In this document: in pieces, positions 4,273 to 37,412 of the stretch
Layout of the letters: each line of letters starts with the position of its first letter
Numbering within the stretch: the stretch's first letter is position 1
IMG/VR virus record: IMGVR_UViG_3300020473_000053
Coordinates: 1-42,251 of that record
Direction: 5' to 3' (one strand)
Length of the DNA stretch: 42,251 nucleotides
Origin: a virus
Notes under the pieces: generated by a model
What the model was told of the DNA's origin: nothing
Seen by the model: only the letters and a program-made list of their open reading frames with translations
Database searches by the model: none
Position numbers and translations under genes: made by a program

Positions 4273-5115
4273 TTACAAGTCTACCTTACGAGTTGGACTG
4301 AAATCTTTAGCATCACCAAAGAATGTTCTTTCTTCAGTAAATCCAAAATCATCACCTGGTGGAATTAATGGATCATCATACTGGTCAATTACAGTATCTT
4401 CATTATAATCCTTTTTCGCTTTAGCAGCGACTGTATATCTCATTTCACGAGATGCAGTTCTTGTATTTGTATCACTATAGTAATCCAATTGAACCTTACG
4501 GATAAGACCATCAGTACTATCTGCAATAGGTCCAAACATATAAGTTTTTGCAGTAAAACTTAATGTGTATATTAATGCTCTTCTAGTCTCAAAATTTCCT
4601 TCATAATCATCTTGAAAGGCAATATTCTCTAGAACCATAGGAACATCTCTCTTTTCACCTATCTGCTTAACTAAATCGATTGATAGATTAAAACCTGGTT
4701 GAAAAAATGGTAGTATCTGTTCTAATATTTGTAAAGAGTCATCCTGTAATTTTGTAAGAATATTTAACTCAAATCCCAAATTATATGGTACTGGCATAAA
4801 GACTTTTTTTAATTTTTTACCATCCTTTGCCTTAAAAGTTTGAGTTACTCCAGATTTTCTTGATGGATCATATGAAATATTATTAACCTCAAAAGACATC
4901 CTTGGTAAAGTAATTTGAATTGCTTTACTTAATTCAGGTTGTTGTTGAATTCTTGCTAAAAACTTTTGTCTTGGTCCATATGAAATTGGTACTTTAATCT
5001 CACTTATATCCTTTCCTGAAGCATCTTGATGACGTATATGAACATCATTAAAAAGAGTTCCAAAAGCAACTACAGTCTTTCTTATTATTTCGTGATAAAA
5101 ATATGTACCTAACAT
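4273..5115 (-). CDS. gp15: Tail sheath stabiliser and completion protein gp15
   Basis: 280 aa, near the T4 gp15 length (272 aa). The N-terminus MLGTYFYHEIIRKTVVAFG, then VPISYGPRQKFLARI and LPRMSFEVNNISYDPSRK, is the gp15 family signature. In T4 gp15 forms a hexamer that caps the tail tube and sheath terminus and later docks to the gp13/gp14 neck. The start ATG overlaps the gp14 stop as TAATG, so the two are probably translated together. No oddities beyond a charged C-terminal tail were seen. Confidence 0.92.
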   Translation of the reverse strand: MLGTYFYHEIIRKTVVAFGTLFNDVHIRHQDASGKDISEIKVPISYGPRQKFLARIQQQPELSKAIQITLPRMSFEVNNISYDPSRKSGVTQTFKAKDGKKLKKVFMPVPYNLGFELNILTKLQDDSLQILEQILPFFQPGFNLSIDLVKQIGEKRDVPMVLENIAFQDDYEGNFETRRALIYTLSFTAKTYMFGPIADSTDGLIRKVQLDYYSDTNTRTASREMRYTVAAKAKKDYNEDTVIDQYDDPLIPPGDDFGFTEERTFFGDAKDFSPTRKVDL

Positions 5116-6518
5116 TAGTATGTACCAAATGGATTTGACTCAGTGAAGTCTAAAATATCGTCGCCAAAAGATTCAAACTCATCACCTGAATTATATATAG
5201 CGTCAACATCTGTTGGATCATATGAAGCAACTGTATATACTGCTCCAGATTCTTTTCCAATAATATCTTCTCCAGTATAGAATCCAGATACTGTTGATCC
5301 TATACCAACATTAGCAATCTTAAGAATATTTGTATCTTTATCCCATTCTTTTACTCTTGCTTGAGTAAATGATCTAGTACCTTCAATTATTTCATTAAAG
5401 AAGAACGTTCCTGTACCACCTAAAGATTCTGGTTCAGCAATCGTTACTGTTGGTACGGTAGTATATCCACGACCTGGATCTCCAACGTATATACTCTTAA
5501 CAACAGTCTCAGTACCAACATTACCAATAGATGCTATACCAACTGCAGTAGTTCCTGCACCTGGTTGACCAATAGTTACTACTGGTTCAGTTCCATATCC
5601 GACTCCACCACCAGTTATACTAAATCTAATAACACCATTATATACAGTCTCAATAGAACAAGTTGCAGCAGCACCTGTTCCACCACCACCAGAAATTGTA
5701 ATAGATGGTGGGGTATTATAACCACCACCTGCACTTGTCATCAAAATCTTCTCAATAGAAGTAACATTTGCTCTAGTTGTTAATATACCAATTGCTCTTG
5801 CATTATCCCCAGTAGGAGATTCTGAAAAATTAATATTTGGGGGTGATGTAAATCCAGATCCATCATTATTAAGGAAGATTTCTCTAACATATCCAACACC
5901 TATAGATGCAGTAGCGGTAGCAGTCTGACCAACACCAACTAATCTAAGTCTACTAATATATCCTTCATCTTGAACTTGAGTATCAATAACATCAATAGAA
6001 GTATCAATAACTTCATCCTCAAACTCAAATAATTCACATTTTAATTTATAAACATAATTTTTACCTAATTGGTAAAATGGATCTTCATGTTCTACAAATT
6101 TAATCTCAAACAATCTTTGCCCTAAAGGAAAATATACTAAATCACCTTCCCTCGGTCTAGTTGCAAGAGTTACCTCTGTATTCTCACCAACATATGCTGC
6201 TAAAAATGGTGCAATAAAATCCTCAAATCTTTCTCTGGATATAGTTAAATCTACCTCATCCTTTAAGCTGATTCCAAATTTGGTCATCACATCACCTTGA
6301 CCACCATATCCATCATAACTGTTAAGATATGCTTCTATAGTAAAATTATCATCAAACTTAGATGATTGAACTTCATTTAGAACATCATCTGTTTCTATAA
6401 ATTTTCTTGGTATATAAGTTACATCAATACCATGAATTTTCAGATGTTCATTTATTAGATCTTGAGCTAATCTTTGTTCAGATGAAGCACCTTGTAAGAA
6501 AAATGGATTTAATGCCAT
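5115..6518 (-). CDS. gp14: Neck protein gp14 with a GxGY beta-repeat insertion
   Basis: 467 aa, much longer than T4 gp14 (256 aa). Residues 1-185 are the conserved part (MALNPFFLQGASSEQRLAQD, IDVTYIPRKFIETDDVLNE, YDGYGGQGDVMTKFGIS, then the FEIKFVEHEDPFYQLGKNY segment). Residues ~195-375 carry at least four copies of a G-x-G-(F/Y)-x-x-(P/V)P-x-(I/V)-x-I beta-repeat (near 211, 265, 306 and 350). The C-terminal ~90 residues return to an acidic tail ending SNPFGTY. In T4 gp13 and gp14 form the neck that joins filled heads to tails. The insertion is probably exposed on the neck surface (inference). Confidence 0.92.
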   Translation of the reverse strand: MALNPFFLQGASSEQRLAQDLINEHLKIHGIDVTYIPRKFIETDDVLNEVQSSKFDDNFTIEAYLNSYDGYGGQGDVMTKFGISLKDEVDLTISRERFEDFIAPFLAAYVGENTEVTLATRPREGDLVYFPLGQRLFEIKFVEHEDPFYQLGKNYVYKLKCELFEFEDEVIDTSIDVIDTQVQDEGYISRLRLVGVGQTATATASIGVGYVREIFLNNDGSGFTSPPNINFSESPTGDNARAIGILTTRANVTSIEKILMTSAGGGYNTPPSITISGGGGTGAAATCSIETVYNGVIRFSITGGGVGYGTEPVVTIGQPGAGTTAVGIASIGNVGTETVVKSIYVGDPGRGYTTVPTVTIAEPESLGGTGTFFFNEIIEGTRSFTQARVKEWDKDTNILKIANVGIGSTVSGFYTGEDIIGKESGAVYTVASYDPTDVDAIYNSGDEFESFGDDILDFTESNPFGTY

Positions 6519-6524
6519 GTTTTA

Positions 6525-7370
6525 TTACCCTACAAAGTCATATGGTGGTAATTCATATTCAGATGCCATTCTAGATCTAAGACCTTCTATTTCTCTTTCA
6601 GCATCATCATATATTTCTCTACCGTTAAGTTCTATGCCACCTGGTAATTTAACTCCACGGAATTTAATTAAATTTTGCCCCCATTGTCTCTTCATGAGAG
6701 CAGTGAGATACAATTTAAGAAATGGATCATTATAAACTTGAGTAAATGATGTTGGATCCAATGCTCTATAACAATCAAGAATTAACCAATTATCAACAGA
6801 TTCTGCACCCCAATCAATATCCAAATATAATCTATCTTGTCTCTTATTAAATCTTATTTGTTTATCAGTAGTAAGTAAATGGTCAATATCCTCAAGATAT
6901 GATTTTACCATTGCATACTGAAGTAATTCTACAGAGTTAAAGTAATAAAGATCATTTAAGAATAACTGATACTTTATACTAAACATTCCACCAGATATTG
7001 AACTGGTATCAAATTTAAAAATCTTTTCTACACCAACTACAGAATCTGGAACTGGTAAAAAATTAGAGGTTTCATACCAATTACCCGTAATTGTTCCTAT
7101 TCCACTTACATTAGTAGAAGTTGCAGTAGTAGTTACAATTCCTACACCATCAGTATCCTTTCCTGTTCCCCTATCAATATCATCCTGAGTAATCTTATAT
7201 TTAAGATACATCCTTTCAACACCGTCAAAGTGTCTTTCATTGAAAAGTTGTATAGCATCATCTACTGCGTCATCAATCTGATCATCATCAATATTAATTT
7301 CCAGTACAGGAGCACCCAGCTTCCTTAAACAGTAATCTACTAATTGTGTTCTACTTGCTGGTTTTGCCAT
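6525..7370 (-). CDS. gp13: Neck protein gp13
   Basis: 281 aa, close to T4 gp13 (309 aa). The N-terminus MAKPASRTQLVDYCLRKLGA followed by INIDDDQIDDAVDDAIQLFN and the YLKYKIT strand is typical of gp13 of marine T4-like phages. The C-terminal part keeps the hydrophobic helices with LKLYLTALMKRQWGQNLIKF and GGIELNGREIYDDAE. It works with gp14 to complete heads before tail joining. A Thr/Gly-rich insert near residues 75-95 (TTTATSTNVSGIGTITG) resembles the beta linkers of the other structural proteins here. It lies between the coiled-coil gene and gp14 with 5-6 nt gaps. Confidence 0.93.
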   Translation of the reverse strand: MAKPASRTQLVDYCLRKLGAPVLEINIDDDQIDDAVDDAIQLFNERHFDGVERMYLKYKITQDDIDRGTGKDTDGVGIVTTTATSTNVSGIGTITGNWYETSNFLPVPDSVVGVEKIFKFDTSSISGGMFSIKYQLFLNDLYYFNSVELLQYAMVKSYLEDIDHLLTTDKQIRFNKRQDRLYLDIDWGAESVDNWLILDCYRALDPTSFTQVYNDPFLKLYLTALMKRQWGQNLIKFRGVKLPGGIELNGREIYDDAEREIEGLRSRMASEYELPPYDFVG

Positions 7371-7602: not shown

Positions 7603-9207
7603 TTAGAAAGTACCTCCGTCTAGTGTTGATGTCCAACTAGGCTTATTAGTATATATGACAGAAACTGTAGATGGAACTACGCCAAGGTCTTGAATCGCAC
7701 CATTATTTCCTTCTTTCCTAATATTATACGTATTAGTAATAGTACCTTCTACACCAACTAAATCTACAGAATTTCCATTAGATACTGGAGATTCAACAAC
7801 ACCATAAGCACCAGTGGTATCTTGCCTTATTATATCACCAACAACTAAAGTAACATTAGATGGCAGTGTCAATGTATTTTTTGTAATAGCAGTTAAAACT
7901 TGCTTGGAAGTAATAACTGGTGCTGCTGGATTATTAGTTGAGGTCTGTAAACCATTCTCATCGAAGTATACAGCACCGTGAGTATTGTAATCAGCAGTTT
8001 GATAATAAATTCCTTTAATGTCTAGGAATCCTCTAGTACCAGATACAGTATTACTTGTTGTGCTTGCATCTGGAACATAAGTCCAAGAACCTGCAGGAGC
8101 ATAACTTCCATTATTTGAGTCAGTATCTACATATCCAAAGAAACCAGTTTTACTATTAGCAGTACCAATACCTGTATTATAGTTAAATGCAATACCACGA
8201 TCAGTATTAGTATCAAAAGCGTGAGTAACAGTCAATACTGTTGTAGTTGTGATACCAGCAGTAGTAGTTCCTTCAACTGTAACAATCTTATTATTAACAT
8301 CATATTGAGTGACTGTTGTTAATCCACTATTTGGAAGTGAGGCATGTCCACTAATAATATCACCAGTATTAATACCAACAATAGAATCAAGAGTAATAGT
8401 ACTGACACCAGTAGCAACTGATGCCATTACAGTTCTTTCACTAGTTACATCACCAATTGAGAATATTGGATCATTGACAGTTACATTGGTTGAGTTAACT
8501 GATGTTGTTGTACCATCAACCTGTAAATTACCTTTAACAATAACATCACCCTGATTGCTTAAACCATCGGGGAATGGGTCAATAAACAGTTTATCACCAG
8601 CACCACTGACTGTAGATATAATATTATCTTCTATCTTAACTTTACCAAAATATGATTCAGTAGAAACGTTCAACGGAGTGTTGAACATTACCTGTTTACC
8701 AGATACTATTAATCTATCAGTACCATCTTCATCATACTCAAACTTAACATCTTTGTCAGAACCAAACGATAAGTGAGTATCATCTACAATATTAACATGT
8801 CCAGTTCCTGCAGGATCAAATATGACATCACCATCTGTATCTGTGGATGATATAACATTACCATCCATTCTAATGTTGTCTACATTCCACTGATCAACTT
8901 TAAGAGATATTGCTCCAGCTAATGCAGTATTTGGGGATGGTCCCATGACAGCGACTATACCACCATCACTATTTCTTGTATTCTGTACACCAGCAATAGC
9001 ACCTGGCGAGTGCTCCATCATAGATGAATAATAATAACCACCTACTGGAAATACATTATTACCGTCGTCTCCGACAAATATCCTATCCTTATATTGATTT
9101 GTTCCTCCGTAACTGCCTATGCCAGTTACATAGCCCATCTCACCCCAATTTAGACTGGCAGGTTTATTAGTCCCAGAGGATCGTTTAATCCTAATAATAC
9201 TAGCCAT
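7603..9207 (-). CDS. Tail fibre/whisker-like virion protein (534 aa)
   Basis: The N-terminus (IIRIKRSSGTNKPASLNWGE, then KDRIFVGDDGNNVFPVGG) is a conserved phage fibre head domain that begins many marine T4-like structural proteins. Near residues 220-250 is the common fibre motif DVIVKGNLQVDGTTTSVNS with TNVTVNDPIFSIGD. The middle is Thr/Gly/Ser-rich beta structure. The C-terminus ends TSTLDGGTF, matching the NGGNF end of the adjacent 75-aa protein. It occupies the position of T4 wac (fibritin), just before gp13, so whisker or side-fibre is the best guess; no fibritin homology is visible. It begins directly after the previous stop (TAAATG). Confidence 0.75.
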   Translation of the reverse strand: MASIIRIKRSSGTNKPASLNWGEMGYVTGIGSYGGTNQYKDRIFVGDDGNNVFPVGGYYYSSMMEHSPGAIAGVQNTRNSDGGIVAVMGPSPNTALAGAISLKVDQWNVDNIRMDGNVISSTDTDGDVIFDPAGTGHVNIVDDTHLSFGSDKDVKFEYDEDGTDRLIVSGKQVMFNTPLNVSTESYFGKVKIEDNIISTVSGAGDKLFIDPFPDGLSNQGDVIVKGNLQVDGTTTSVNSTNVTVNDPIFSIGDVTSERTVMASVATGVSTITLDSIVGINTGDIISGHASLPNSGLTTVTQYDVNNKIVTVEGTTTAGITTTTVLTVTHAFDTNTDRGIAFNYNTGIGTANSKTGFFGYVDTDSNNGSYAPAGSWTYVPDASTTSNTVSGTRGFLDIKGIYYQTADYNTHGAVYFDENGLQTSTNNPAAPVITSKQVLTAITKNTLTLPSNVTLVVGDIIRQDTTGAYGVVESPVSNGNSVDLVGVEGTITNTYNIRKEGNNGAIQDLGVVPSTVSVIYTNKPSWTSTLDGGTF

Positions 9208-18030: not shown

Positions 18031-19596
18031 TTAGAATTCCAGGATGATTTTAACGTCTTCTTTTTGTCTCTCATTACGAGCAACCAAGGGTCTATTATCA
18101 ATGTAAATAATTTCTCCCGATCCTTTATTTATCTCAGATTTAGATAACCCACCAACGAAGGTAGTTCCTAAGTTAATTAATTTAGTTCCAGTTGGATTAG
18201 TACTGATACCTATAAAGTTTTCATCAACTGTTCCATTGAAATTAGTTCCTCTAACAGCAACGGGAGATGACTCAAATTGATGTATTCTACCTGTTGTAGA
18301 AATTCCAGAATAATCAGTTTGATCATTAGTACTTGTATAGTTTAAAGATCTATCTCTAAAGTATTTTAATACTTGAGTTTCTTTGTCATACGACGCAACA
18401 TAACCAGTAGCCAAATTAGTATCTGGAGCAGTTCCAACTATTTGAGAGATTTCCTCACCAACATCAGGTGTTCCTTCTAAAGACTTAAACTTAATTGCTT
18501 GTAAAGAAGAAAAATTAGTTTCTGTGATAGTAGAAGCAGTCCCTGCAGCAGTTGGATTTTTTACAATTCCAACTTGTGCAAATTTGGTATCGGTTGGAAA
18601 ATCTTTCGTAGAATCATCAAATCTTGCATAAACTAAAACTTTATCAGTTCCCAATTCTTTATAAATGTCATATCCATGACCCAATGATGGTGGAATAATC
18701 GGAACTAACTTTGCCCTTTTGTTGACAGGAACATTACTACTTAATGGACCTAAATCTACAAGAGCATAAGTATATCCTTGACCACCAGAACTAACAGTTG
18801 CATTTATAATTTTACCTGCAACAACATCAACTCTAGCTGTTGCACCTTCACCATCTCCAATAATTTTAACCTCTTGACCTAAACCATCAGCATATGCACC
18901 ACCAGCATCTGCAATGTATATGTGCTTAATTTGGTTATTATTGGCAGTAGAATTACCATTCTCTCTCACTGCTCTTATTTGAGCATCTGTACTTGTAGAC
19001 CAATTATTAGGAACTGTTATATATTCAGTCGAATCAAACTTTATAATGTCACTTGGAGAAACTGTATAAAGATATTTCCAAATATAACCATCACCACTAG
19101 TACCAGCTCTAGATGGTTCTAAATCAGTAAATGTTGGTTCATCTTGAGATATATTTCCTTCTAGATTATCTCCAGTAGAACCATTATCGATACAAATATA
19201 AACTTTATAATCTGAATTCATTACATAATAGTTTGAGCGATACAAACTACTTGATTTTGTTAATGGACTTTGATTACTAGAACTATAATCATCTCGATAA
19301 ATTTCATATCTTGTGCCAGCAGCCCAATCTACCCTTCTAATAATTCTTCTAATATTGGCAGAAGAAATCTTCTTACCAAACATCATTGTATCACCAGAAT
19401 GTGCATTATAAGAAAAATTATCTACAGGTGCTGGAGTACCACCAGCACTATTCCATGTTGATTCTCTACCAAAACCATTAAGAGTTGGGTTTGGTAAACC
19501 AATATAGACATAATAAGAATTCTTATCAGACTCTACTGATTCTACAAAATTATTTGCGTTCAGAATTCTAAACTGATCAGTAACAATTGCCGACAT
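18031..19596 (-). CDS. gp8: Baseplate wedge protein gp8
   Basis: 521 aa versus 334 in T4. N-terminal MSAIVTDQFRILNANNFVES, then YYVYIGLPNPT, IIRRVDWAAGTRYEIYRDDY, NYYVMNSDYKVYICIDNGS and SGDGYIWKYLYTVSPSDIIK are hallmark segments of the gp8 family. Extra length comes from a GxGY-type beta region near residues 225-285 (DAGGAYADGLGQEVKI; SSGGQGYTYALVDLG) and a Thr-rich C-terminal part. In T4 gp8 dimers join gp10, gp7, gp6, gp53 and gp25 in the baseplate wedge. A perfect late promoter TATAAATA lies 28 nt upstream, so it may start its own late transcript. Confidence 0.9.
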   Translation of the reverse strand: MSAIVTDQFRILNANNFVESVESDKNSYYVYIGLPNPTLNGFGRESTWNSAGGTPAPVDNFSYNAHSGDTMMFGKKISSANIRRIIRRVDWAAGTRYEIYRDDYSSSNQSPLTKSSSLYRSNYYVMNSDYKVYICIDNGSTGDNLEGNISQDEPTFTDLEPSRAGTSGDGYIWKYLYTVSPSDIIKFDSTEYITVPNNWSTSTDAQIRAVRENGNSTANNNQIKHIYIADAGGAYADGLGQEVKIIGDGEGATARVDVVAGKIINATVSSGGQGYTYALVDLGPLSSNVPVNKRAKLVPIIPPSLGHGYDIYKELGTDKVLVYARFDDSTKDFPTDTKFAQVGIVKNPTAAGTASTITETNFSSLQAIKFKSLEGTPDVGEEISQIVGTAPDTNLATGYVASYDKETQVLKYFRDRSLNYTSTNDQTDYSGISTTGRIHQFESSPVAVRGTNFNGTVDENFIGISTNPTGTKLINLGTTFVGGLSKSEINKGSGEIIYIDNRPLVARNERQKEDVKIILEF

Positions 19597-19646: not shown

Positions 19647-22600
19647 TTATATTTTCATCCTAAGAGCACCAGTATTTCTCAATCCCTTTAAGGATTGATT
19701 ATCATAATTTCTTCTTTGGATTGTTGGGAATGTAGTCAACCCAGAATCAACAGTTAATCCAGTTACTCCAATGGAGATAGGACTTGTTTCTCTGGTTAAA
19801 TCATCACCATAGATTCTACCCCATGATAGTCTACCTAGAGAGGTAGTTAATCCAGCATCACCTAAAGGTCCAGGACCATCATAATATCCAGTTGCTGCAA
19901 AACCAGTAATAGTCTCAGTAGTACTTAAGATATTACATGTTATATATCCACGTTTACCTAATGTATACGTTTCAGCAACTTTATAGATGTTATCCAAGTA
20001 AGTAGATCCAATACTTACTATTTCATTATCATTATTATCTACAGAAGTAACTGCAGCACCACCTTTACCTGCTGTCCACCTATTATTATTAGGTTGATAT
20101 GAATCATCAGGGAACCATTTACCAGTAGTAACAGCACCACCAACAGTAAAGAATGTATCTTGAATCAATACTGGATATCCAACAATAAGATCACTAGCAA
20201 CTTTATCAGCATAATAATCAAATCTAACTGCTAATGGATGACCATTAGTACCTGCTGATGTACTAATTCCAGTAATAATACCAGTAAACCCTTGAACATT
20301 TCCAATCCTAGTGATTTTTTCTGTATCATAATATGGTCTTGGTAATATAACTTGTGGTGGATTTGTGTTGGTATATCCTAAACCAATATTGTCAATGGTT
20401 ATTGAATCAATCTTACCGTTAACTATATTAGCAGTTGCTTCAGCAAAGGTAGAAAGACCAACAGTAGCAAATTCGTCCTTAGTAACAGTTCCAACACCAA
20501 TTGAAACAAAGTTTGTAGTTATTCCAAGAGTACTAATTCCTAAAGTAGGATCATATTCAATGCCATTAAAGACATAGTTTGGAGCACTTATATAAAGTGT
20601 AACTCCAGCACCAATGTATCCACTACCCGAATTTTCAATCGTAAAGGATTCAATATCACCTCTAGTAGAAACATTTGCTGTAACTACACCACCAACATAA
20701 TCTGATGATGGTAATAATAAAGTATCTACAAAATTAATATTTGTTTGATAGCGATCCTCTGCATCTAATGCGGGATTATTTTCATCTTCATAGAAGAATG
20801 ATTCTGCATCATCAACAAATATTCCACCATTAAGTCCAACTCCAGTAGAAGCATTTACATCATAAATTATTTTTGCTGTAGGATATATTTGAGGTTCAAT
20901 AGATTCTCTAGATTTAGATATTAGAGATCCTTTTACCCACTTATCATGTTTTTGTTTTGTCCATTCAAGTGGTTTACCAATTTCTTCATTTATTCCACGA
21001 CCAGTGTATATTGTTGTCTCTGTAAGATCAGAACCAAGAATTTCCTTAATTGTTCTATTACTCTCTTGAGTAATAGTGTATGGATCTACATTCTCATCAA
21101 TATGATCTGGATGCTGATTAATTCTAACTAAATCTCCAACCTTAATAGATTCTGTTTCATCAACAATCTCAATATCTACTCCATCTTCTCCTTTATAGAA
21201 GAATATATCAACCTTATCACTAAATGTTGGTGCTTCAGTGAACATAAATGTTGTTCCACCTTGGAATTGATATGCTATATTTGGTGTCTGAAGTACACCA
21301 TTCACAAATATCATTAATACTGCATTAAGATCTATTTGCGAAGATAATTTAGAAGTTTTATCAACCTCAAAACTCAATAATTGACCATTAAAGAATAATG
21401 GGAATCTTCTTCTATATCCATCTTGAAGGTAACTAATAGTATCAATAAAATCTAATTCACCAAACTGCCAAGCAGCGAAATAATCATTAAATACCTCAAC
21501 AATTTCAAGTTCAAATTCTTGTATTGGTCTTTGTAATCTCTTATCAACAACCAAACCAGATGGTTTTAATTTATCACCAACCTTGAAGGAATGTCCCTGT
21601 CTAGCAATTTTAAAATCTGCTATCTCAAACATACTACGAGCAATACCAATGCTAGTATGTGCTGCACCAACGTCCAAATTAACTAATAGATTTTGACCTG
21701 TTGCTTCTGTTAATCCAACTCCAAGTCTAGAGATACCAATAACAGGCACATTTTCATACACTGGATCAGGTATTTCTAATTCTGGGTTAACATATCTTGC
21801 ACCAGGATTGTTTATTGTTAATGCTAATGAACCACCAGAAGAAGCAGGTGATTTACCAACCATTACTCTGAAATCATCACCAGCAACTTTACCTACAGGT
21901 AATTCTATTCTATGTGCAGGATCAGTTATACGTGGATAAGAATGAAGTGTTTGATGATTATCATTCGCACATGTAAATGTTAAAGATGAGGTTTCAATAC
22001 CTACAGTATCATTTGATTTAAGAATACAACCATTCTTAATATCTACAATTGTATGTGGATATTTTTCATCAGATGGATTTGGATTAACATTAACCTTAAA
22101 TGTATTAATAGTTCTATTTGTAATTGTTAACCATTTTCCACTAGCATAATCAGTAGGTCTAGGATAACTATGTCTAGTTACATTACCATCTTTTGTGCAA
22201 GTAAATGTTAGTGAATTATCCTCAATAAGAATCTTATCATTAACTTGATATCCATGACCATTCTTGGTAATCGTCAATACACCAGAATTCTGATTATAAG
22301 CAACATTACTTGGTGTAATAGTAGAACAACCAACATAATCGTGAGAAGGACTGGTTAATATTAATTCACCTGTAGATGGATCATATTTTCCATCAGTAAT
22401 ATTGCGATTTACTAATGGTGATTTTCCAACAAAAACAGTAACTTCATTTCCTACTACAGAAACTGGAACGTTTGATGAATTGTGTATTGGATCAGTGTGA
22501 CGAGGATAAGTATGCTCTGTAGCATGATTATCTCTAGTACAGGTAAATGTTAATGAATTTGTTGCTATACCAATTGAATTTACATTAGTAATTCCATGAC

Positions 22601-25600
22601 CACTAGGTACAGTTAGGACTAAGTTACCAGTATCTGCATCATAAGTTGCATTAGTTGGTGTTACCTTAGTTCCTGCCCAATAATCAATAGCAATACAATC
22701 AGTATTCTCTGTTCCAGGAACAAAGATATGTTCATAATCACCACCAGTAAATGCAGCACCTGCTTTAGCTTCAACAAATTTATGTACGTTAGGTGAAACA
22801 ATGGCACTAACAGATCCACCTGTACCACCTCCACCACCAGATCCAACATTTATAACGATAGTTGTATCTGTTGTCTTACCAATACCAATAACTTCAGATG
22901 AACCTGCTGGATCAGTTGTACGTGGATATGTATGACCACCTAGATGATTATCTCTAGAACATGTAAATGTTAATGAATTTTCAGTAAGTACAACACTATT
23001 ATTTGCCTTTTCTAAACCACCAGTCATTCCAGATACAAATGTATGAGGATAATTTCCACCAGTAGTTACAGCATCGTTATCTGCTGTTACAAATGTATGT
23101 CTTGTTATATTTGTAGAAGGTATTGTTGATAGAACTTGAAGTGTTATAGTTGTATCTGTTACTGACTGAATGATAAAACCAGATGTGTAGAATGGATCAG
23201 TTGTTCTTGGATAACCTTTCTGAGATGTGTTATCATCAACATCACAAGTAAATTTCAATGATTCTTCTGCAATCTTAACATTTGTTCCAGCTCTCAATGA
23301 ATGAGTACCAATGGTCAATTCCATTAAACCAGTTACTGGATCATATTCAGCATCAGTAGGAGTAAATTTCAATAAAGCAGATACACCGACATTAACAACA
23401 AATGAATCTGTAGTCTGCGATGCAACACTAATCCACTTACCACTTACTGGATCTGAAGGTCTTGGATAATGATGACTTGTTGCATGATTATCCATCTCAC
23501 ATGTAAGAGTGATAGCATTATCCTTAAATCTAACTTTATCAGCAGTAGTAAATCCATGATCAGAAGTAATAGCACCTGGAAGTGCTGAATTAAATTCATG
23601 ATCGCTAGTATCTGTAATAGCACCTTGTCCACCATTTACATTAACTGTAATAGTATTCCAAGTTGTTGCTGTTATAGGAAGCCAAGTATTATGTGCATAA
23701 TCTTTCCCATTACCTGTACTTGCACCAGATGATCTAGGATATGACTTAACAGTCTGCTGATTGTCATCATTGTAATTGCAAGTAAATTTAATAGACTCTT
23801 CAGCAATTTTAATCTTATTGGATGTAGTTAAATAATGACCACTTCCAATTGTTAATACCATATCACCACTTGTAGGATTATATGTTGCATTTGATACATC
23901 AAAACTATTACCAGTAGTAGTTACCTGAAGTTCACCATTTACAGGATTATATGATGCATCAGTTATTGTATGTGAGCTAGAACCTCTTAAATTGTGTGCA
24001 CCAAGTGTTAATACTAACTCTCCACTATGTGATGTATAAACAGCATCTGTAGGAGTATACTTATCAGAAGGACCACCACCGTATAATTGTATAGAATCAT
24101 CAGCAGAACTAACAAACTTATGATCAAATTCTATATCAGTAACTCCAATAGCAACTGGTTCTCTATAACCAGATCCTAATTGTAGATCTGGATAATATTC
24201 ATATGCATAAGCACTTGAATTATCATGGAAGATATGTCTGATAGTGCAAATACCAGCCATTGCCTCAAATGTTCTCTCAGATATTATTCCAGTTACAGAT
24301 ATTGGTCTTTCGGTATCTTGGAAGAATGATGTCGTAAACCCAACGTAATTAAGAGTACGAATACAATCAGGAGTTGCACCTACGAATGTATGATCAGTAG
24401 TATTAGTTGGTGTTAATCCACGTAAAATATTAACCTTAAATGTATCTGTTTGAGAATCAAATACAGTTAAAAATTCATCATATGCTGGATCTGTTACTCT
24501 AGGATATTCATGATTACCACTACCATGAGTACATGTAAATGTTAGAGATTCCTTTTCAATCTTAATTGCATCACCATTTGCAAGACCATGACCAGCAATT
24601 TTTATAGTTAAGTCTCCTGTAGTTGAATTATAGGAAGTTCCTGATACATCAGGTGTTCCAACTGAATTTGTTGGACATATAAATTCTAATCCTTTTAACT
24701 TAATTAGTTTAGGATATCCTAATGCAAATCCATGAAGACCAGTAGTAGTAACTGTTATAATTCCAGTAATATTGTCATAAGCAGCTGTCTGAATACCAAG
24801 ACTACTTCTATTAACCATAGAAGATGTTCCTACACCAACAATACCATCTAAAGTATTTGCAGCAAATCTATTAGAAGAAATTTCCTTTGTATCGAATCTA
24901 GCTTTAGCACCTTCTAAAGGAGCATATCCAACACCTGGTGTTGATCCCATAGAAACTATCAGACCACCTCTTGGTAATTGATTCTGATTAATATCAAATT
25001 CTGACTGCATCATTTGCCCATTTTCTGAGCTAATTCCTGTAAATACTACACTTGATATTCCTGCAACAGGTGCTGTCTCAAATTCATAGTTGTTACCAGA
25101 ATTATTAAGTGTTAATGGTGTCTGGAATACTCCATTAATAAACAGAATTCCATTACCAATACTAACACCACTAATTGTATCTGCTGCTCCTACAGTTAAT
25201 GAATATGTTCTACCTATTCCAGTAAAATTATCTGAAATATCATCAAATACCATATTGGTATCATAATTCTGCCTTAAGAAAGTTCTTCCACTAAATTCTG
25301 CTCTTACATAAGGAAGATTTGTTATACTTCTTCTTTCTCTAGTATTTCCTTTAGGTGGATCTAAGAACCATACAGTACTATCAACAATATTGAAAGATCC
25401 TCTATGAACTCTAGCAACTGATTCATCATCATGTTCAATTGCTGGTATACCCAAAGATCCTCTTTGTACTCTAACAACAGGTAATGTACAAATACCAAGA
25501 GCAACATCTTTAGAATCGTTTATAGTTCCAAGACCAACACTTGCAAATCCTACCTGCTCAACCTTCATATATTCATTATCAATTTTAAGAACATCTCTTG

Positions 25601-28600
25601 GTTGAATAGAACTTATTCCACTTAAGACAAATTGAGAAGTTGCTGCACCTATTGCACCATCAAGTTCGTGTGAAATTGCAGTAAATGTAATTGGTTGTTG
25701 AACAATACCATCAAGACCAATAACAGTTTTACTCAACTTCTTGGTCATATCAAATCTATGTGCATTACCTTCACCAACACCAGTAACAGTAATAGCAATT
25801 CCAGTATTTACATATTCCTTTCTACTGAATATTTGGAATTCATTCTCATTTATTACACTAACATAAACATTTGATGGCATTATATCAGTTATAATACCAG
25901 CATTATTTGTAGTAGATCCTATTGATATTGCAGTAGCACCAATACCAATAAACGTAGAACCTGCTGAGTACTCTAATTCTTCATTATCATTAAAGAAGTG
26001 ATTGTTAATCTTAAATACATCTTTATCTTCAACTGATGTAGGATTAAAACGTTTGCTATAGATTGGAACACCTTCGTGCTTAAGATCAAAATCAATCTTA
26101 TTTGCTCTATTTCCATTTGCACCATCATATGCAGATAATATTAAATCATTTACAACTGGACCATATTCCAGTGCAGGAGGTTCATTAGCAAAGTCATTAA
26201 AACGATTGAAGACCTCATTGTATGCTTGAACTTCAATAACTGCATTTGTATAATCTAAAGTATTACCAGTTCCATCATCTGGATAGAAACTAAATGCAAC
26301 CTGATTTCCAACATTAGTAGTTCCAAATGTACCTAAACCAATAGTAGAATTAATAGGAACAAATGGATATTCTGTTATTGATATAGTAGAAGCATCATTA
26401 AAGAGAACTACCTGATGAATAGAAGAAGTTTTTCCACAAGAAACTCTAACAAGAGATTTAACACTTGAATCAAGATCACTATTAATATTAGTGACTAATA
26501 TAGGTGCTGTTGCATTTCCAGAATGATATGTAGACTCTAATCTACCACTTCTTTCTGCACCAACTGGTTGTCCAGGAACTGCATAACGATATGTACCAAT
26601 ACCTGCAGTTGTTGTACCAAATCCAACAACATTTGCACTTATTGATAATGTTCTAGATCTATCATTTTCACACTCAAGATAAACTCTATCTGTACCAGAA
26701 TCGTATCTAGCAGTAATTAAACCTACTCTACTTGAACTATATGTGTATGTTAAATTGTCTGCATATATTTCAGAAATATATGTTGCTGTACCATCAAAAT
26801 CAACATTAACTTCACTATAGTTAATTTGTTTTGTAACATCATCCTGAACAACTACATTAGCATATAATGCATTGAAATCACTAGTTGGCCAACTTAATAT
26901 CTCTGTAGTATCTGGTCCAAATACAAACCTATCCTCAAATCTATCTAAAAATTCAATTGGAGTAGCAGAAACTGTCTGATTCGTACTAGAAACTACACGA
27001 TCTCCATCCTCATTAAAACTAACAACTACTAATTCAGCAGAAGTATCAGAGAGAATAGAAGTAATTGCTGTTCCTACTCTTATACTATCTCCACTTAGAT
27101 GTGCTCCAAGCATATCTGAAGTTAATGGTGTATCAGCAGGTACTGTTAATTGAGTATTAGTAATACTTCCTAAAGCAGTTGTTATACCTGTTCTAACCTT
27201 TGTAGTTGTTCCTGTTAGATCTATAGACCCTATACTTTGTGCTCCAGTAGAAGCAATACTTGTATTAAAGTTTGATTTTAGTATTTTAATATCATGATCT
27301 TTATCAAACTGTTCTTCAGGATTAAATACTAGAGTCTTTCTTTGGAAAGTATCAGATTCTGCAACAAATTCTCCTAATTGCTTATTAGAAAAATCTGTAG
27401 ATTTCTCTAACATATAAGCATTATTTGTTGATGTTAATACGACTAAATCTGTAAGTTGTATATCGTAGGTATCTGGATCAACAACCTGAATTAAGTATCT
27501 TCCAAAATTAGTAGTTACTTCTTCAATTTCAGTAAATAAGTCCTGCAATCCTTTACTGGAGAATCTTCCACTAATATCATCATGAATAAGAACTCTATTT
27601 GTTTTACACTTAGTGTAATCTGTTAATTTTACATTCTCAAATTGAATGAATTTAGATTTATTTCCTCTGGAATCATAATCCAATACCATATCAAAATTAT
27701 TAATAGTATCAACTCTTCTTTCGTTAGTTACATCTAATACAAGTACATTATTAGTAGTTGCAGCATAACCAGAATTAACTTTAGATGAAGAACCAACGCT
27801 AACATCAGCAAAATTCTTTAATCCAACTGGATGAACTAACCTATTAACTGGATCAGAAATTTTATCCCAAGTAATTGGACTCTTAATAGAATATGAAAGA
27901 TTTTGATAATAATCATTATTAGGAATTACTTGGAAATCTTCATCCAATTTACCAATTTCATCAGACCATCCATAATCCTGACGATTAGAATAATCTACCT
28001 CAAATCTTGCTTCATTCTTATTAATGCCAGTAACAGTAGCAGTAACGTTACTAGTACTACCTTTTATTCTAGCACCTATTTCTAGATCATAGGTTCCATC
28101 AATCTTAATATAATCATCTCTAGCATCTACAACAAATAGATTTTGTTCCAAATAAGTATTATTAAATTTAACATATAATTTCTCATTTATTGTAAATCTA
28201 CCTCTTTCTTGAATTGATTCAAGAATAGGATATTTGTTTCTATTAACAATAGTTGCATATCCAGATTGGAATGTTTTAGCAATACCTGGATTTGTAGTCA
28301 GTCCACTTATACTATATTTTAATACTGCTGGATTAGAATTAATAAAGTCTTGTATCTTAAAGAATCTAAACTGATAATTAGCAGAATTGTAACCATCACC
28401 ATCAGATATAGTATTCATACCAACAGTTGATGACTGCTGAGTTCCTATACCAGATTCTCCAAATAATTCAACACCTTCTACAAAAATATCATCACCTATC
28501 TCAAATGGAGGAACTACAAATCCATTAATTGGAGTGTCTAAAACGCATGTAACAATTCCTGATCCACCACCAACAATAGAGTTAATTCCCACACCATTAG

Positions 28601-31600
28601 AATTATTAACTGATATAATCCTATGATTAACTGAAGTTAATCCTTGTATAGGAGCAAGTATATCAATTTCTGATATAGATTGGTTTGGAACCTTAGCTAT
28701 CAATGAAGTCTCATCAACAATCTCATCGTTTTGTGGATCATAAACAACAATATCAGGAACACTTAAATATTCTTTACCACCATCAACAATCTTAATATCC
28801 TTAATAGTATCTAAATTATCAAGTCGTATTACTGGTGAAACAAATGCTTCTGGACTTAAAGTCTTATCAGAAGAATATTCATATCCAATATCTACAATTC
28901 TAACATCCCTAATTCTACCTATAGATGTTGATAATGCTACAATATTAGCATTTTTACCATTCATACTAACAATGTTAGAGAATGCTGGTAGACTCTTATA
29001 ATTATATCCTCTAGATATAGTTTTTACTTCTTTAATTGTACCTTGTACATTTGTTGATTCTGTAGCATATTCAATAGTTTCACATTGATCTTCTGCATAT
29101 GTAAGAACTGTAGGAATAGATCTTGGAGATATCTTAAATGTATCAGATGTTATTCCGAATATACTATAATCTCCACTATATGCACTATCAACAAAATTTA
29201 TTTGTGAATAATTTTCAACTTTAGTATCTGCTGTACTAATAAATCCAGATTTGGTTAACGAATAATATAAACGAGTTGGAGCTGATTTTGAGAATGATAA
29301 TGATACAGTACTATTATCACCAACACCAACAGTACCAAAACCAACTACATTGAAAGTAGAACTATCCGATGAACTATTGTATTCATTCTTAAATTCATAA
29401 TCATAGAAAATCTTAAAATCATATCCAAGTAAATTAGGATCAGAAACATTAAATGTTAATTTTGAGTTTTTAACAACATTAATTGCTGGATTTATTAAAC
29501 CAACCTGATGATCATCAGATAAAGTAGATCCAATACTAATCAATGCTGGAGGATCAACCTTAACATCCCTTAAGGTTTTTCCTAAACTGAATTTATCAGA
29601 ATTTACCTCATAAACATAATACGCACCTGTAGATAAACCAATCAAAGGTATAGTAGTATCATAAAATAATCTATCACCAGTATGATATCCATGATCAGTT
29701 ATTGAAATTGTATTATGAATCTCATCTACTTGTGCCGTTGGGAATCCAACCTGATTTATTATTAATTTTCCTTCACCAATTGAGGTTCCACCAAGTCCAA
29801 CAGTTAATGGTGCAGTACTACCTAATCCAACAACACAATTAGGAACAACATTTAAGCTGATAACATCAGAATTTCTTAATCCATGCGTATCAGTATTAGC
29901 AGCACCTATTTTTGTACTTACTGTAGATACAATCTTATTAATATCACCCAATACTTGATCGTGATTAGATTTTAGAAAATACTCTGAATCATCTGATCCA
30001 TTACCGTGGAAAAATAAACCTTCACTTGTACTACCTATAGATGCTCTTAAAGTTACAAGACCAACATAATTTTGACCTTTATTAATTGCATAAACGGTAG
30101 AAACATCTGTAGTTACATTTGGAATATTGAAGAGTGGGAAATCATTATTATTTGCAATATCAGTTTGACCTACAATTAATGAAGTTGCACTACCTCTTTT
30201 ACCTATAGTTAATTTTTGACCCGTCTTGAATGGATGATTTGGAATATAAATTGTTCTTGTAGGAATAGGAACTGATTTAGTTGTCTCTCCTATAGTATGA
30301 TCAACACTTATACCACCACCAACTGTAGTACCTAGACCAACTGATTGAGGTGCATTAAAATAAACTAGATCGTCAATAGTAGATGTAAATTCTTTAGTTC
30401 TAACTGGAATAGTAATTTTACTGTTTAGAACATCAATTTTTGAGCTATAAGTATGTGCAATACCAACACTATATCTCTTAACCCTTAAAATAGAACCTAA
30501 TGGGAAGATATTCAGAACCTTAACAATCTCAGTGTCACTAATTCTTAAACTAGAACCAACAGAAACTGTATTTGGTATAATATTGACATAGATATCATCA
30601 ATTCTACCCTCAACAACTGAATTAGCAGTCATTGATTTTGCTAATCCAATAACATCAGTCTTAATACCTATAGAAAATGAATCTGTAAGGTGTACAATAG
30701 AACTACTAAGTCCAGAAATAGCAACAGTATCCTTATTGTTTAATTCAATATATGGGAAATATGATGCTTCTACTTCATGATCATTTTTCCAAACAAATGT
30801 AGCATTCTCATATGCTTCTATTTCAGTATCAATACGAGAAATACCAATACCAACTATAGATTTAACAGTTCCTCTAAGTCCAGATCCACTAGTATTTGCA
30901 TTATCAAAGACTGTAAAATCACCAACTGCATATCCATCACCACCATCTAATACTCCAATAGTATCAACAGGTCCAGCAGTTACAGATTCAACAGTAGTAA
31001 GTTGTCTAAGGAATTCATTAGATTCTATTATAGAATCATTATTTACTCCAACCTTACCAACTTTATGTGGGAAGGTGTTTCTAGAAAGTTTAGTAGTATT
31101 GAAATCTAAATCTTGTGTTAGATAAGTATTTGTTGAAATAAAGGGAGAACGATAAGAATTACCAATAAAATAAGGATATTTTGGTTCTAACTTATTAGTT
31201 TGTGTGGATGTTGTAACTCCAGCAAAATATGCATAAACTCCATTAGGAAATTCTGGTGTTTTACAGAATCTTCCATTATGAATATCAAGATCACCAGAAC
31301 CATCAAAGTAATAATCATCAGTAAAGTATCCTGATGGGAATTTATTTAAGTCTATAGGTCTATCAATAACCTTATTACTGTCTAACTTATAACCAGGTCT
31401 CATTATATGAACTTCTGGACCTAATTCATCAGGACTTATATACCCATATGGTCCATATATTGGATTACCATCGTATGCCCATCCTATAATTGGAGAATGT
31501 CCACTAATTGGATTAGGATCATTAAATAATGTGCCAATATCTTCAGTATATCCAACCACATTAAGATGTAATGATTCACCACCAACATCAGGATTTAGAT

Positions 31601-34600
31601 AATACTCACCATCTCTTTTTCTAGTGTCGATAGTAAGTCTTCTAACTCTACTCTCAAATAATGCGTTTTTACCTTTTCCTTCTGCATAAACATTAATTTT
31701 ATCTGCAGTATATCCAATACCTGGATTAATTACTATTACATCTTCTAATTTTCCATCAACAATGACTGGGCGAATAACAGCACCATTTCCACTAATTCCT
31801 GTAGTTGTTATTCCTGTTGATTCTACAACCAAATCAGGCATAGAATAATATTCTTTACCCTTATTAAGAACATGTACATCAACTAATTTTCCATCAACAA
31901 CACTTGGATTTAATTCAGCACCCTTTCCGTTCTGAATAGTTACTTTTGGTTTTCTTTGATGATTTAATATTTCAGAACCATATTTAGATCCCTCTTCATA
32001 AAGATAAGTACCAATTATTTCACCAGTAACAATCGGAGTGAAAGTAAATGGTGTAGAAACACCAGCAAGTGCAGTTGCCGTTGTTGCATAAGCAACATCC
32101 ACACTTACTTTAATATCTGGATACTTAAATGTTTGGAAACCTGTACCAGTTGTTGATAATCCAACATAATCACCCCTATCATAATTGTCTCTAGAAGGGG
32201 TTCCTATACCAGCATCAGCTAAACGGAATGAATCTTCATCAATTTTCATCACATAATATGAATGAGATGAATCTAATCCTTCAATTGCGTTTGGTGTTGT
32301 ACTTCCTAAACCTACTGTTGTATGATATTCTACAAGATCACCTTCACTGAATCCATGATTAACAAAATTAATACTATCAAAGTTTGTTGATATTCCTAAT
32401 GGTTTTACATGTAATTTTCTATACTGATAACCAGATCCCTCAGTTAATACTTTAACACTCTTTAGATTATTCTTAGATGATGTTCTAAATTTATGAATAC
32501 CACTAGCAGTTGTAGAAGTTGATAAACCAATAGTATTGATACCACTTACAGCATCTTCATAAGATTCATATAATTGAACAGTTTTATCGTTGATTATACC
32601 TACATGATATGGAGAACCATTTGCTAAAGTACCTGTTGCTTCATTACTAAGAGCTTTGTAAACACCTATTCCAAGATTAGAATTGCCATTATTATTATAA
32701 TAAACTAAATCACCGTCTACTAGAAAATGCTTCTTAGTAAATGTGATTGTTTCATTTACTATAGAAAGACCACCAGCAAAGAAAACATCTCTACTGTCAA
32801 ATGATAATTCTCTAAATCTAGGACCAATAATAGGTTCTAAAGTAGCACCAGAACCATTACCACCTGTTATATCAATTGAAATAACTCTATCAATATCAAA
32901 ATCTTGAGGATCAACAAAAACCTCTTTAACAGATCCACTAATAATTGGTTCAGCAAGTGCAGTTACACCTAATCCAACACTATCATCTATTAATAGTCTT
33001 GGTGGATTTACTACATCGTACCCATCACCACTATTAAAAGTATCAATACTTGATAATGGTCCATAATAGATGTAATCATCAGAAAGTGGTGTTCTTATTT
33101 CTACACCATCTGCCATTAAACCAATATTATTAACTGGTCTTTCACCAGACCCCTTCTTAAATAAATCTTGAGATAATGGGAATTTTCTTATAATGGAATT
33201 TTTATTAAGAAGTCTATTATAATGTTCAGATCTAATCCAGTTATGAATTCCCGAACCTTTCTTAAATTTAACACATAAAGGTAAATTAGTTACTGGATCT
33301 ACTAATCCAATTTGAGATCTTGAAATATATAATCTTATTTTTCCTGGATTAGTTTGTAATACTTCAGCATAGTATATTGATCCTGCAGATAATCCAGGTA
33401 ATGAATCTCCTTCTGGTATATAAGTTAGAGATTCTCCTGTAATAAATTTAATTGGTTCAGTGAATACAAATATATTATACTCATCACTAACCGAATTATA
33501 ACCATCAAGAGAGAAAGTTAAAGAATCAGATTGACTAGTATCTGTTGCAGCAGTTCCAACAATGTCTACATCAGTGCTTAAAACATAATTTGGAAGAGAG
33601 TTAGAAGCAACATATCCATCTTTATCTCCATCAACATATACATTTAATACATCAGAAAGAATGGTGTTATTACCATCACTAAGAGGAATTCCATCACTTG
33701 ATGCCTTCTTCAACTTTCTTCTGAGATCATAAAGTTTTGTAGAATCCCAATTAAATGATCCACCAGATCCACTTAAAGTAATTGATTTAGTACTATTATC
33801 AATTGAACCAATAATTAGATTAGAAAATTCAACAAGTTGATTATTAGGATCACTACTTCTTCTCAAGATATCAACAGCATCACCCTTTCTTAAACTTGTA
33901 TGGTCAGGAGTACTCTTTAATATAATATTAGGACCTGAAAAACTTTGTATTTCCCACCTAGTATTTGTATTATAAATCCAAGAATTGGCAAAAATTTCCT
34001 TATAAGTACCCTTTCCCTGTTTTGGAGTATCAATAGATGTACCTACATTCTTAACATATATCTTCTCATCCTGTTTAATCAATGAAATGTCAGATAATGG
34101 TGTAAACTTAGAAAGTACACCAGTAATTCTAAGTTCTACTTTTTTAGTTAAATCACCATCTTCATATCCATATATAACCTCATCAGATCTAATATCATCA
34201 GAAGTTGAAATACCAATAGTAGTACCTGGAACTCTCTGTACTTCTATACCTGTTACCCCAAAAAATTGGTTAATAGATTTAGAAGTGTATTTGATTGAGG
34301 TATTTTCTCCACTTATAATACTACCAGAAGCAGGGAATCCAATTGTTGAATCGACACTAATGATAGAATCACCAATATTTGCAGATTCTAATGTTTTCGT
34401 CTTTCCAGGAACAGTAAATGTACCTTCAATTAAATCTCTATCATTAAATCCAACAAATAAAGATAGTTTATAATATGGTTTATTATCTCTAGTTAATATT
34501 TCAACTTCAGATACAGATGCATTTGTTCCAAGATCAGTGGATTTGTATATTGTTTGACCAACTAATTTAGATGGATCTCCAGATAATCTATCAGCAATAA

Positions 34601-35357: not shown

Positions 35358-35360
35358 TAT

Positions 35361-37412
35361 CTACTTCCTCTCCAGATCCCCATTTGCATAACTTGATGTG
35401 TAATAGTCTCTTGAAAATACAACTCCAGAAACATCTTCTCCTGAAGCAATTACGTCTTTAACCATATTTATCTTACTATTAGAAACGTCAAAATTGAGAT
35501 AAAGATCCTTTAATCCGATAATATCATTAGATTCTGGGAATGCCTGAATCTCTATTAAATTATTTGGAGCAGCAGTTGATGCAATATTAATTGTATTTAA
35601 CTTAATTTCACCTTTTTTGTAATCAACAGTACCAACAGATTTGATAATAACCCTAAGTTCATTTAGTTTTGTTCTTGAAACAACACTAATAGTACCCATA
35701 TGACTTCCATCTAAGTCACCATTTTCATTTTTATTTGGAACATCAGTTAGATAAACTAGATCATTTGATCCAGAAACAGTAAATCCACTACTCTTAATAT
35801 TAAATCCTTTTGGATTAACGTGGAATTGATTACCATAACATAATTCATACTGTGCAAATTGATTAATAAGCACTTTCATATCTCTTCTAATTCTAACCTT
35901 GGTTATGTTAGAAGTGATTGCATTATCAACCCTATCAATCAATTGAAGCATCTTACTGTACTTAAACCTTCCACCAAACTTATTAATATCAACAGTATTA
36001 GAATAAGATGAAAGAGAATTAGTAATAGTTGACTTTAATTGATTAGAATTACTAACAAGAGCACTATTGTAATAAATTGTAGAATCAATCTCAACATATA
36101 GTGTCTTAAGATCTACAATTTCAGCATTAATACCAGCAATAGAGTAGTTTTTAAGTTTATTCTTTATTTGTAACTTATCAAAATCTGAAACATATGTACC
36201 ATTTTTTGGTTTAATACTAATCTGAACCTTACCAAATTGTGGTGGGTTCAATTCTTCACCACCAACTACAGCAACAGACTCTGTTCTTGGATAGATTGTT
36301 TGTATTATTGCCTCGTAATCCCTGCCTGTAACTGCCCTGTATTGTGCTGAATATATTCTAGGGGCAAAATACTTAATAGATGATATATTCTCCTTCTCAG
36401 ACCCATTTCGAGCAGGTTGAACGGTAGTAATATTAATAGTATCATAAGGTGTTACAACTTTTGCAGTAGGATCATTAGGATCCTTACTAGTAAAAACACC
36501 TTGGAAATCAAATAAACCAACAGATCCTACTTTTCCACCAGGTCCGTTACCATCCTCACCATCAGTAACAATGTATCTTACAGTAACTACCTCATCATTA
36601 TGAAGCTTTTTACCAAAATGACCATCACCGAATAATATTTCATACTTTTCATCCTGTATTTCTTGTAAGAAGAATATTTCAGAGTTTTTATCAATATTTA
36701 AAATATTATCAACCATAGCAAATTGTCTACCAATAGTAGTTGTTCTATTGGGAGAAACATAAGTTGTGATACTAGATGTATCAATATTTGGATTGCCTAA
36801 AATAAATCTTTGATCTTGAGTAGTAGTAACACGGAAAGTTCTTTCTAATACTGTACCTTGATAGACTTCTATACCAGTATTAGCATCTATCCCAAAAGTT
36901 GCTTTATAAATGTTATTACCAGATGCTATAGAATCAGTTAAAGTCTTATCATAAACTAATGCTGCACTTATTGGTTCTGTAATTGAAAATCTATATGTAG
37001 AGTCGTCAGTATTACCAATACAAACTAAACCTGGTTTTAAGTATATTCTCTCTAATTTCTTCTGCTCTATAACCGTAAAATCAGTCGCTGAAGTGGGTTC
37101 ACCCTCATATACTACCTCAAAGTAAATTAACGCCTGTGCAGCAGATCTAGAGCGTGGTATATAACCAATATTACGTGCTAATGATACGACATTCTCTCTA
37201 ACAGTTGCAGAATCTAAGAAAGATTCATTAGCAACTAAATTTGCATTAAATGAATTAATATAGGTATTATATGCTAACGTATCAATTAGAATTGAAAAGT
37301 TAGATCCCTCAAAATCAAAATCCGAAAACTTAGAATTTGCCCGAAGATAATCTCTTATCTGAGCTTTAATCTGATCAAAATCTAGAGTTGAAAAGTGCGT
37401 GAAGGAAGACAT
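35361..37412 (-). CDS. gp6: Baseplate wedge protein gp6
   Basis: 683 aa, near T4 gp6 (660 aa). The N-terminus (SSFTHFSTLDFDQIKAQIRD, YLRANSKFSDFDFEGSNFSI, LIDTLAYNTYINSFNANLVA) and the VRENVVSLARNIGYIPRSRS motif are characteristic. The middle (ISSIKYFAPRIYSAQYRAVT, then GRDYEAIIQTIYPRTESVAV) is the Baseplate_J-like region. In T4, gp6 dimers form the continuous inner ring that drives the baseplate conformational switch. It follows gp25 by 1 nt and precedes the giant protein by 3 nt, so these three are one late operon. Confidence 0.94.
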   Translation of the reverse strand: MSSFTHFSTLDFDQIKAQIRDYLRANSKFSDFDFEGSNFSILIDTLAYNTYINSFNANLVANESFLDSATVRENVVSLARNIGYIPRSRSAAQALIYFEVVYEGEPTSATDFTVIEQKKLERIYLKPGLVCIGNTDDSTYRFSITEPISAALVYDKTLTDSIASGNNIYKATFGIDANTGIEVYQGTVLERTFRVTTTQDQRFILGNPNIDTSSITTYVSPNRTTTIGRQFAMVDNILNIDKNSEIFFLQEIQDEKYEILFGDGHFGKKLHNDEVVTVRYIVTDGEDGNGPGGKVGSVGLFDFQGVFTSKDPNDPTAKVVTPYDTINITTVQPARNGSEKENISSIKYFAPRIYSAQYRAVTGRDYEAIIQTIYPRTESVAVVGGEELNPPQFGKVQISIKPKNGTYVSDFDKLQIKNKLKNYSIAGINAEIVDLKTLYVEIDSTIYYNSALVSNSNQLKSTITNSLSSYSNTVDINKFGGRFKYSKMLQLIDRVDNAITSNITKVRIRRDMKVLINQFAQYELCYGNQFHVNPKGFNIKSSGFTVSGSNDLVYLTDVPNKNENGDLDGSHMGTISVVSRTKLNELRVIIKSVGTVDYKKGEIKLNTINIASTAAPNNLIEIQAFPESNDIIGLKDLYLNFDVSNSKINMVKDVIASGEDVSGVVFSRDYYTSSYANGDLERK

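Follow-up and report, generated by a model that had tools for sequence, protein, structure and literature searches.

The neck protein gp14 encoded in the window (the whole stretch of viral DNA analyzed here, 42,251 nucleotides, IMG/VR record IMGVR_UViG_3300020473_000053) carries an arm of four GxGY repeat units and a small beta domain between a T4-type core and a conserved C-terminal tail. On balance, we favor reading this arm as a modular decoration or surface appendage, displayed six times per virion at the head-tail joint. Sequence comparison shows the modular architecture itself, the changes in unit copy number, the exchange of the module between relatives, and the occasional insertion of a lectin-type domain. 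The modularity of the arm, its exchange, and its occasional lectin-type domain appear to be new; the structure found in the window is itself ordinary for this phage group.

Gene 14 and the anatomy of its arm

The window belongs to a P-SSM2-like cyanophage. The neighbors of its open reading frame at 5115-6518 encode gp13, gp15, and gp16, which identifies this frame as gene 14. Its product is a T4-type gp14 (head closure Hc2), which fits its position between genes 13 and 15. The Pfam profile T4_neck-protein (PF11649) aligns with residues 3-180 at an E value of 2.5e-33 and 116 bits versus a curated cut-off of 25, PHROG 460 ("head closure Hc2") covers residues 1-325, and significant sequence hits in the PDB come only from chains of T4 gp14, along residues 3-173. 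A Foldseek search with the whole protein, dominated by the core, also retrieved 9lu4-9lu7 and 9mkb. A reading error or a split gene is ruled out by the single open frame and by full-length relatives in isolates. The features are as follows.

5115..6518, minus strand: gene 14, neck protein/head closure Hc2, 467 aa (open reading frame; PF11649, E 2.5e-33; PHROG 460, E 6.7e-132)
6525..7370, minus strand: gp13, neck partner, head-tail adaptor Ad2 (PHROG 211, E 2.9e-47; alignment with T4 gp13)
4273..5115, minus strand: gp15, tail sheath stabilizer, whose T4 counterpart binds the gp14 C-terminal arm (PF16724, E 7.6e-89; T4 role, PMC12270204)
5964..6518, minus strand: gp14 core, residues 1-185, shared with T4 gp14 (PDB match to T4 gp14 at 3-173; Foldseek 9lu4-9lu7, 9mkb)
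5895..5963, minus strand: beginning of the arm, including a half unit, residues 186-208 (unit HMM match at 195-208, 7 bits)
5772..5888, minus strand: GxGY unit 1, residues 211-249 (unit HMM, 52 bits)
5643..5756, minus strand: GxGY unit 2, residues 255-292 (unit HMM, 45 bits)
5517..5633, minus strand: GxGY unit 3, residues 296-334 (unit HMM, 37 bits)
5373..5501, minus strand: GxGY unit 4, residues 340-382 (unit HMM, 56 bits)
5208..5408, minus strand: "GE" domain, a small beta domain, residues 371-437, overlapping the end of unit 4 (beta strands of the arm model; unit-free in S-RIM44)
5118..5207, minus strand: conserved C-terminal tail, residues 438-467, ending in DFTESNPFGTY (kept in 0-, 2-, 4-, 6-, and 8-unit proteins)

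With 467 aa versus 256 aa, the window gp14 exceeds that of T4 by 211 residues, in line with the roughly 210 given in the first-pass annotation of this DNA. The repeats proposed there ("four or more" units containing PP) are real, but they number exactly four, and PP occurs in only two of them. Residues 220, 264, 305, and 349 mark its occurrences in the form G-x-G-[FY]-xxx-P-x-[VIFL]-x-[VIFL], the motif used here. Chance occurrence was rejected, as 20,000 shuffles of residues 191-385 yielded one match in 30 cases and two matches in none. The unit HMM, built from the units of 380 distinct gp14s, describes a unit of 43 residues with the consensus "VKSIFLTNGGSGYTSAPTVTISGPPAGGIGTTAAAVASIG..". Since the window units are only 22-39% identical among themselves and DNA repeats in gene 14 are short only, the array is an old protein repeat, and recent expansion of a DNA tandem array is ruled out.

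The first-pass annotation had singled out residues 190-380 for structure prediction and described the ends as conserved. The module is longer than this interval, since the units are followed at residues ~383-437 by another beta domain, not of GxGY type (the bulk of the GE domain, pattern ..NEIIEG..ARVKEWD..GFYTGEDIIG..SGA..). Conservation of the N-terminal end extends over the 185-residue core, whereas in comparison with T4 the C-terminal end is reduced to a short NPF/SPF motif, SPF being the counterpart of the window tail at the T4 gp14 C terminus. Besides this motif, T4 gp14 (PF11649; 9LU4-9LU7, 9MKB) shares with the window protein the homologous core (3-173) and the gene order 13-14-15-16. 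It differs in its arm of ~75 residues, which has no GxGY unit or extra beta domain, against about 250 residues in the window. In T4, C-terminal residues 178-256 of gp14 are disordered and become bound to gp15 upon tail joining, which places the arm at the gp14/gp15 joint (PMC12270204). Sited between the core and the conserved tail, the module thus falls within the stretch that is disordered in T4.

Structure prediction, a check proposed in the first-pass annotation, returned a confident all-beta domain for residues 190-400; the arm alone was modeled as all beta with a mean pLDDT of 90 and a pTM of 0.73. Predicted strands run long, short, long in each unit. From their order, we would expect each hairpin to bridge two neighboring units, an arrangement that would account for the half unit with which the array begins. 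The arm model had no match with an E value of <0.06 in a PDB fold search, and the PDB sequence search of the arm was also without a match. Pfam yielded no meaningful match for the arm, either to an Ig family or to whisker and fiber families, the lone Ig-type hit being a chance-level PKD_3 (E 0.19, 1 of 18 members); PHROG tail fiber matches reflect the common repeat. The arm therefore resembles Ig-like decoration domains neither in sequence nor in fold. Like T4 Hoc and Hoc-like decoration proteins (PMC11821841, Sf14), it would display beta domains in varying number at the surface of the virion, but the Hoc domains are Ig-like and decorate the capsid, whereas the window arm belongs to a connector protein.

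Copy number and exchange of the arm among relatives

The GxGY arm is usual in P-SSM2-type phages and in many other marine cyanophages, and the window gp14 is an ordinary PHROG 460 member, a single protein in which the core is joined to GxGY units, a GE domain, and an NPF tail. P-SSM2 gp14 is 74% identical to it end to end, with four units, and 181 phage records match at least 80% of its length; P-SSM2 and the other cyanophage gp14s of PHROG 460 share this architecture with no difference in kind. The variation in copy number that the first-pass annotation had suggested looking for among cyanophages does exist, with counts of 0, 2, 4, and 6 among the 380 distinct gp14s and about eight in S-8S56, although the loci were gathered with 0-, 2-, and 4-unit queries and the frequencies of these counts are no census. 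The units do not belong to the gp14 core in all T4-like phages, so that the outcome named as a refutation in the first-pass annotation did not arise: T4 (256 aa) lacks them, and so do cyanophage S-RIM44 (292 aa), pelagiphage HTVC008M (290 aa), and Sinorhizobium phage phiM19 (217 aa). On inspection by eye, odd raw HMM counts of 1, 3, and 5 (loci L089, L316, and L329) were put down to units that are degenerate or had been missed. Even counts were rejected as a strict rule and are suggestive only, given these raw odd counts and the few independent events that carry parity.

Among four-unit phages, units at the same position are 56-70% identical between phages, whereas different units are 28-36% identical, which argues for an old and ordered array. 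The 6-unit gp14s of L322/L329 and of L325 fall apart on the core tree, and in both cases the two additional units sit between units 3 and 4. Possession of four units is a stable state in the window's clade, every clear member having at least four, and the arm diverges faster than the core (mean identity of 48-67% versus 78%). Two relatives (L330 and L334) have four-unit gp14s of 544 and 555 aa with an insertion of ~80 residues in the post-unit beta domain, which gives the arm another site of insertion.

Several relatives whose arms are longer or altered also have a longer gp15 (344-361 aa versus 261-280 aa). The 344- to 361-aa gp15 proteins of L575 (4435-5517), L322, L329, L330, L334, and L316 carry a small additional domain N-terminal to the conserved EFGDDFGF near the C terminus, so that the partner of gp14 also has an optional domain. 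A rule by which unit number sets gp15 length was discarded, as gp15 of the 6-unit L325 is of ordinary length (265 aa).

The isolates S-RIM44 (0 units) and S-H9-2 (2 units) are 94% identical in the gp14 core and 92% in the C termini but 63% in the domain adjoining the units. Their gp13 and gp15 remain 88% and 85% identical, respectively, so that these partners need not change with the arm. The gp14s of both phages (Kyanoviridae) share core family, GE domain, and tail with the window protein; they differ in having zero or two units, sited within the GE domain, whereas the window units precede it. Among 112 relatives, pairs of differing state remain at ~62% identity in the unit-adjoining domain at core identities of 65% and 95% alike, whereas same-state pairs climb from 75-80% to at least 90%; the eight differing-state pairs with cores >95% identical are noisier (74% and 67%). 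On the core tree (102 rows), the state switches at least 12 times, against 28 to 36 times in the ten label shuffles listed. The rows behind this evidence are mostly metagenome contigs, and forks in the core tree are often weak. Such a pattern would result from two old alleles, the 0-unit and 2-unit arms, being repeatedly recombined onto near-identical cores within one cyanophage clade.

Lectin-type domains and related units in other proteins

The gp14 of the isolate Sf-FS3 reaches 763 aa and carries a Laminin_G_3 domain (ConA-like lectin/glucanase) between its second and third recognizable units. This domain, 51% identical, also occurs within gp14 of the isolates S-SSM7 and S-SSM6a. The gp14s of Sf-FS3 and S-SSM7 both score 31.2 bits against a cut-off of 27.6, and neither genome has another Laminin_G_3 match outside gp14. 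A Pfam search found no Laminin_G_3 in the window's own gp14. A lectin fold is no proof of glycan binding, but these insertions are the strongest hint of an exposed arm that may be able to bind.

GxGY-type sequence recurs in the window in the baseplate wedge protein gp8.

18763..18939, minus strand: GxGY-type sequence in gp8, residues ~220-278 (PHROG 460 at 210-278, E 9e-4; hhalign to the gp14 arm, probability 88%)

This gp8 (18031-19596) has 521 aa, of which residues 3-196 are matched by T4 gp8 (334 aa) and residues 463-521, weakly, by a related wedge protein; the GxGY-type stretch has no T4 gp8 match. Among the baseplate genes, gp6 and gp8 are separated by a single open reading frame of 5236 aa (19647-35357), a putative virion protein of giant size for this place. 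Units resembling those of gp14 are likewise detectable in PHROGs 701, 5342, 19630, 708, and 2885, but in other virion proteins (baseplate wedge, fibers, and large structural proteins). Searches of Pfam and PDB found no family or solved structure covering the GxGY repeat. Among predicted viral structures (BFVD), the gp14 model matches those of cyanophage structural proteins as well as A0A6J5L2T0, A0A6J5SB35, and A0A5S9C1A0, which are annotated either as P22 gp10-like (in uncultured phages) or as a Tenacibaculum phage neck protein. Judging from these predicted structures, similar repeats may occur in neck proteins of other phages. In HTVC008M (NC_020484.1, L094), a 1016-aa protein of the baseplate cluster (33435-36485) is annotated "head closure Hc2", and the true gp14 lies at 60545-61417. 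This protein has weak unit matches, and its label may have been carried over via the common repeat.

Proposed role of the arm at the head-tail joint

In T4, a gp14 hexamer sits under the gp13 dodecamer and closes the DNA channel (PMC12270204). We propose that the T4-type core of the window gp14 would likewise form a hexameric ring below gp13 and that the conserved tail would clip onto the tail terminator gp15. Four beta-hairpin units and a small beta domain would replace the flexible linker arm of T4, and the array would loop out between core and tail to form six appendages around the head-tail joint. Relatives would exchange this arm, lengthen it by two units per step, and sometimes insert a lectin-type domain. 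Its most likely role would be binding glycans or particles, or contacting tail fibers, outside the DNA gate. The first-pass annotation had envisaged a beta domain on the neck where T4 has none. Structure prediction and the absence of units from T4 support the domain itself; from T4 we infer its position outside the ring, and we also expect six copies per virion and a binding role.

Decoration or adhesion ranks first for us in view of how the arm is exchanged, of its faster divergence, and of the lectin-type insertions. Against it we count the stable four-unit state of the window's clade, as compatible with a structural function as with adhesion, the lack of a lectin-type domain in the window gp14, and the derivation of the exchange evidence mostly from metagenome contigs and a tree with weak forks. 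More tentatively, and with the balance tipping against it, the neck ring protein of marine T4-like phages might be an exchangeable adhesion organ, with six arms of paired beta-hairpin units that recombine like alleles, in some cases gain a lectin-type domain, and do the work of T4 whiskers in binding host or particle glycans or in controlling tail fibers.

A structural collar, in which the arms would pack on gp13, gp15, and the first sheath ring, strengthen the joint, and bind nothing external while their copy number is tuned to the partners, strikes us as rather improbable. It draws on the binding of the T4 gp14 C-terminal arm to gp15 (PMC12270204), on the four units and position-specific conservation kept in the window's clade, and on the longer gp15 of several relatives with longer or altered arms. 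The exchange of 0- and 2-unit arms on cores up to ~96% identical fits it poorly, as do the conserved partners of the isolate pair and the ordinary gp15 of six-unit L325, and a collar has no need for a lectin-type domain. We give still less credence to arms that hold or sense the long tail fibers in place of whiskers, the task in T4 of the separate fibritin (Wac), which binds domain III of gp13 (193-238) and contacts the long tail fibers (PMC12270204). The window gp13 is 28 residues shorter than that of T4, with gaps in or near the fibritin-holding part, and no wac gene was recognized next to gene 13 in the window. This alignment is weak and the gap shifts with the method, so the shorter gp13 was rejected as proof of missing whiskers and kept as weak support only; unit-free S-RIM44 and HTVC008M also have a shorter gp13. 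Whiskers are, moreover, long coiled-coil trimers, whereas the gp14 arms are short beta arrays. A 534-aa protein (7603-9207; PHROG 15769, unknown function) adjoins gene 13 where T4 has wac. With its N terminus MASIIRIKRSSGTNKPASLNWGEMGY, resembling cyanophage fiber-type proteins, it could itself be a neck fiber. T4 fibritin whiskers and the neck fibers of A-1(L) are neck appendages too, but as separate trimeric fiber proteins anchored on gp13 in T4 (PMC12270204) and on neck gp5 in A-1(L) (PMC10966104); the appendage of the window phage would be the ring protein's own.

Least credible to us is a passenger repeat, in which the units would be filler widespread in phage virions that entered a tolerant loop and has no particular role. 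Related units do occur in many virion proteins, including the window's gp8, and close relatives do without any unit, but unit order and position-specific identity are kept (56-70% for the same unit against 28-36% for different units), and every clear member of the window's clade retains at least four units.

For cyanophage necks of this type we found neither a structure nor virion proteomics, and the open literature searched yielded no report of a gp14 insert or a neck lectin in cyanophages. Profile families that contain the repeat, such as PHROG 460, may mislabel baseplate or fiber proteins as head closure. With gp14, a repeat that lacks a solved structure gains a natural copy-number series for experiments (0, 2, 4, 6, and about 8 units). 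Neck proteins are usually viewed as conserved internal plumbing; a swappable, lectin-bearing arm would make the neck surface-variable in very abundant marine phages.
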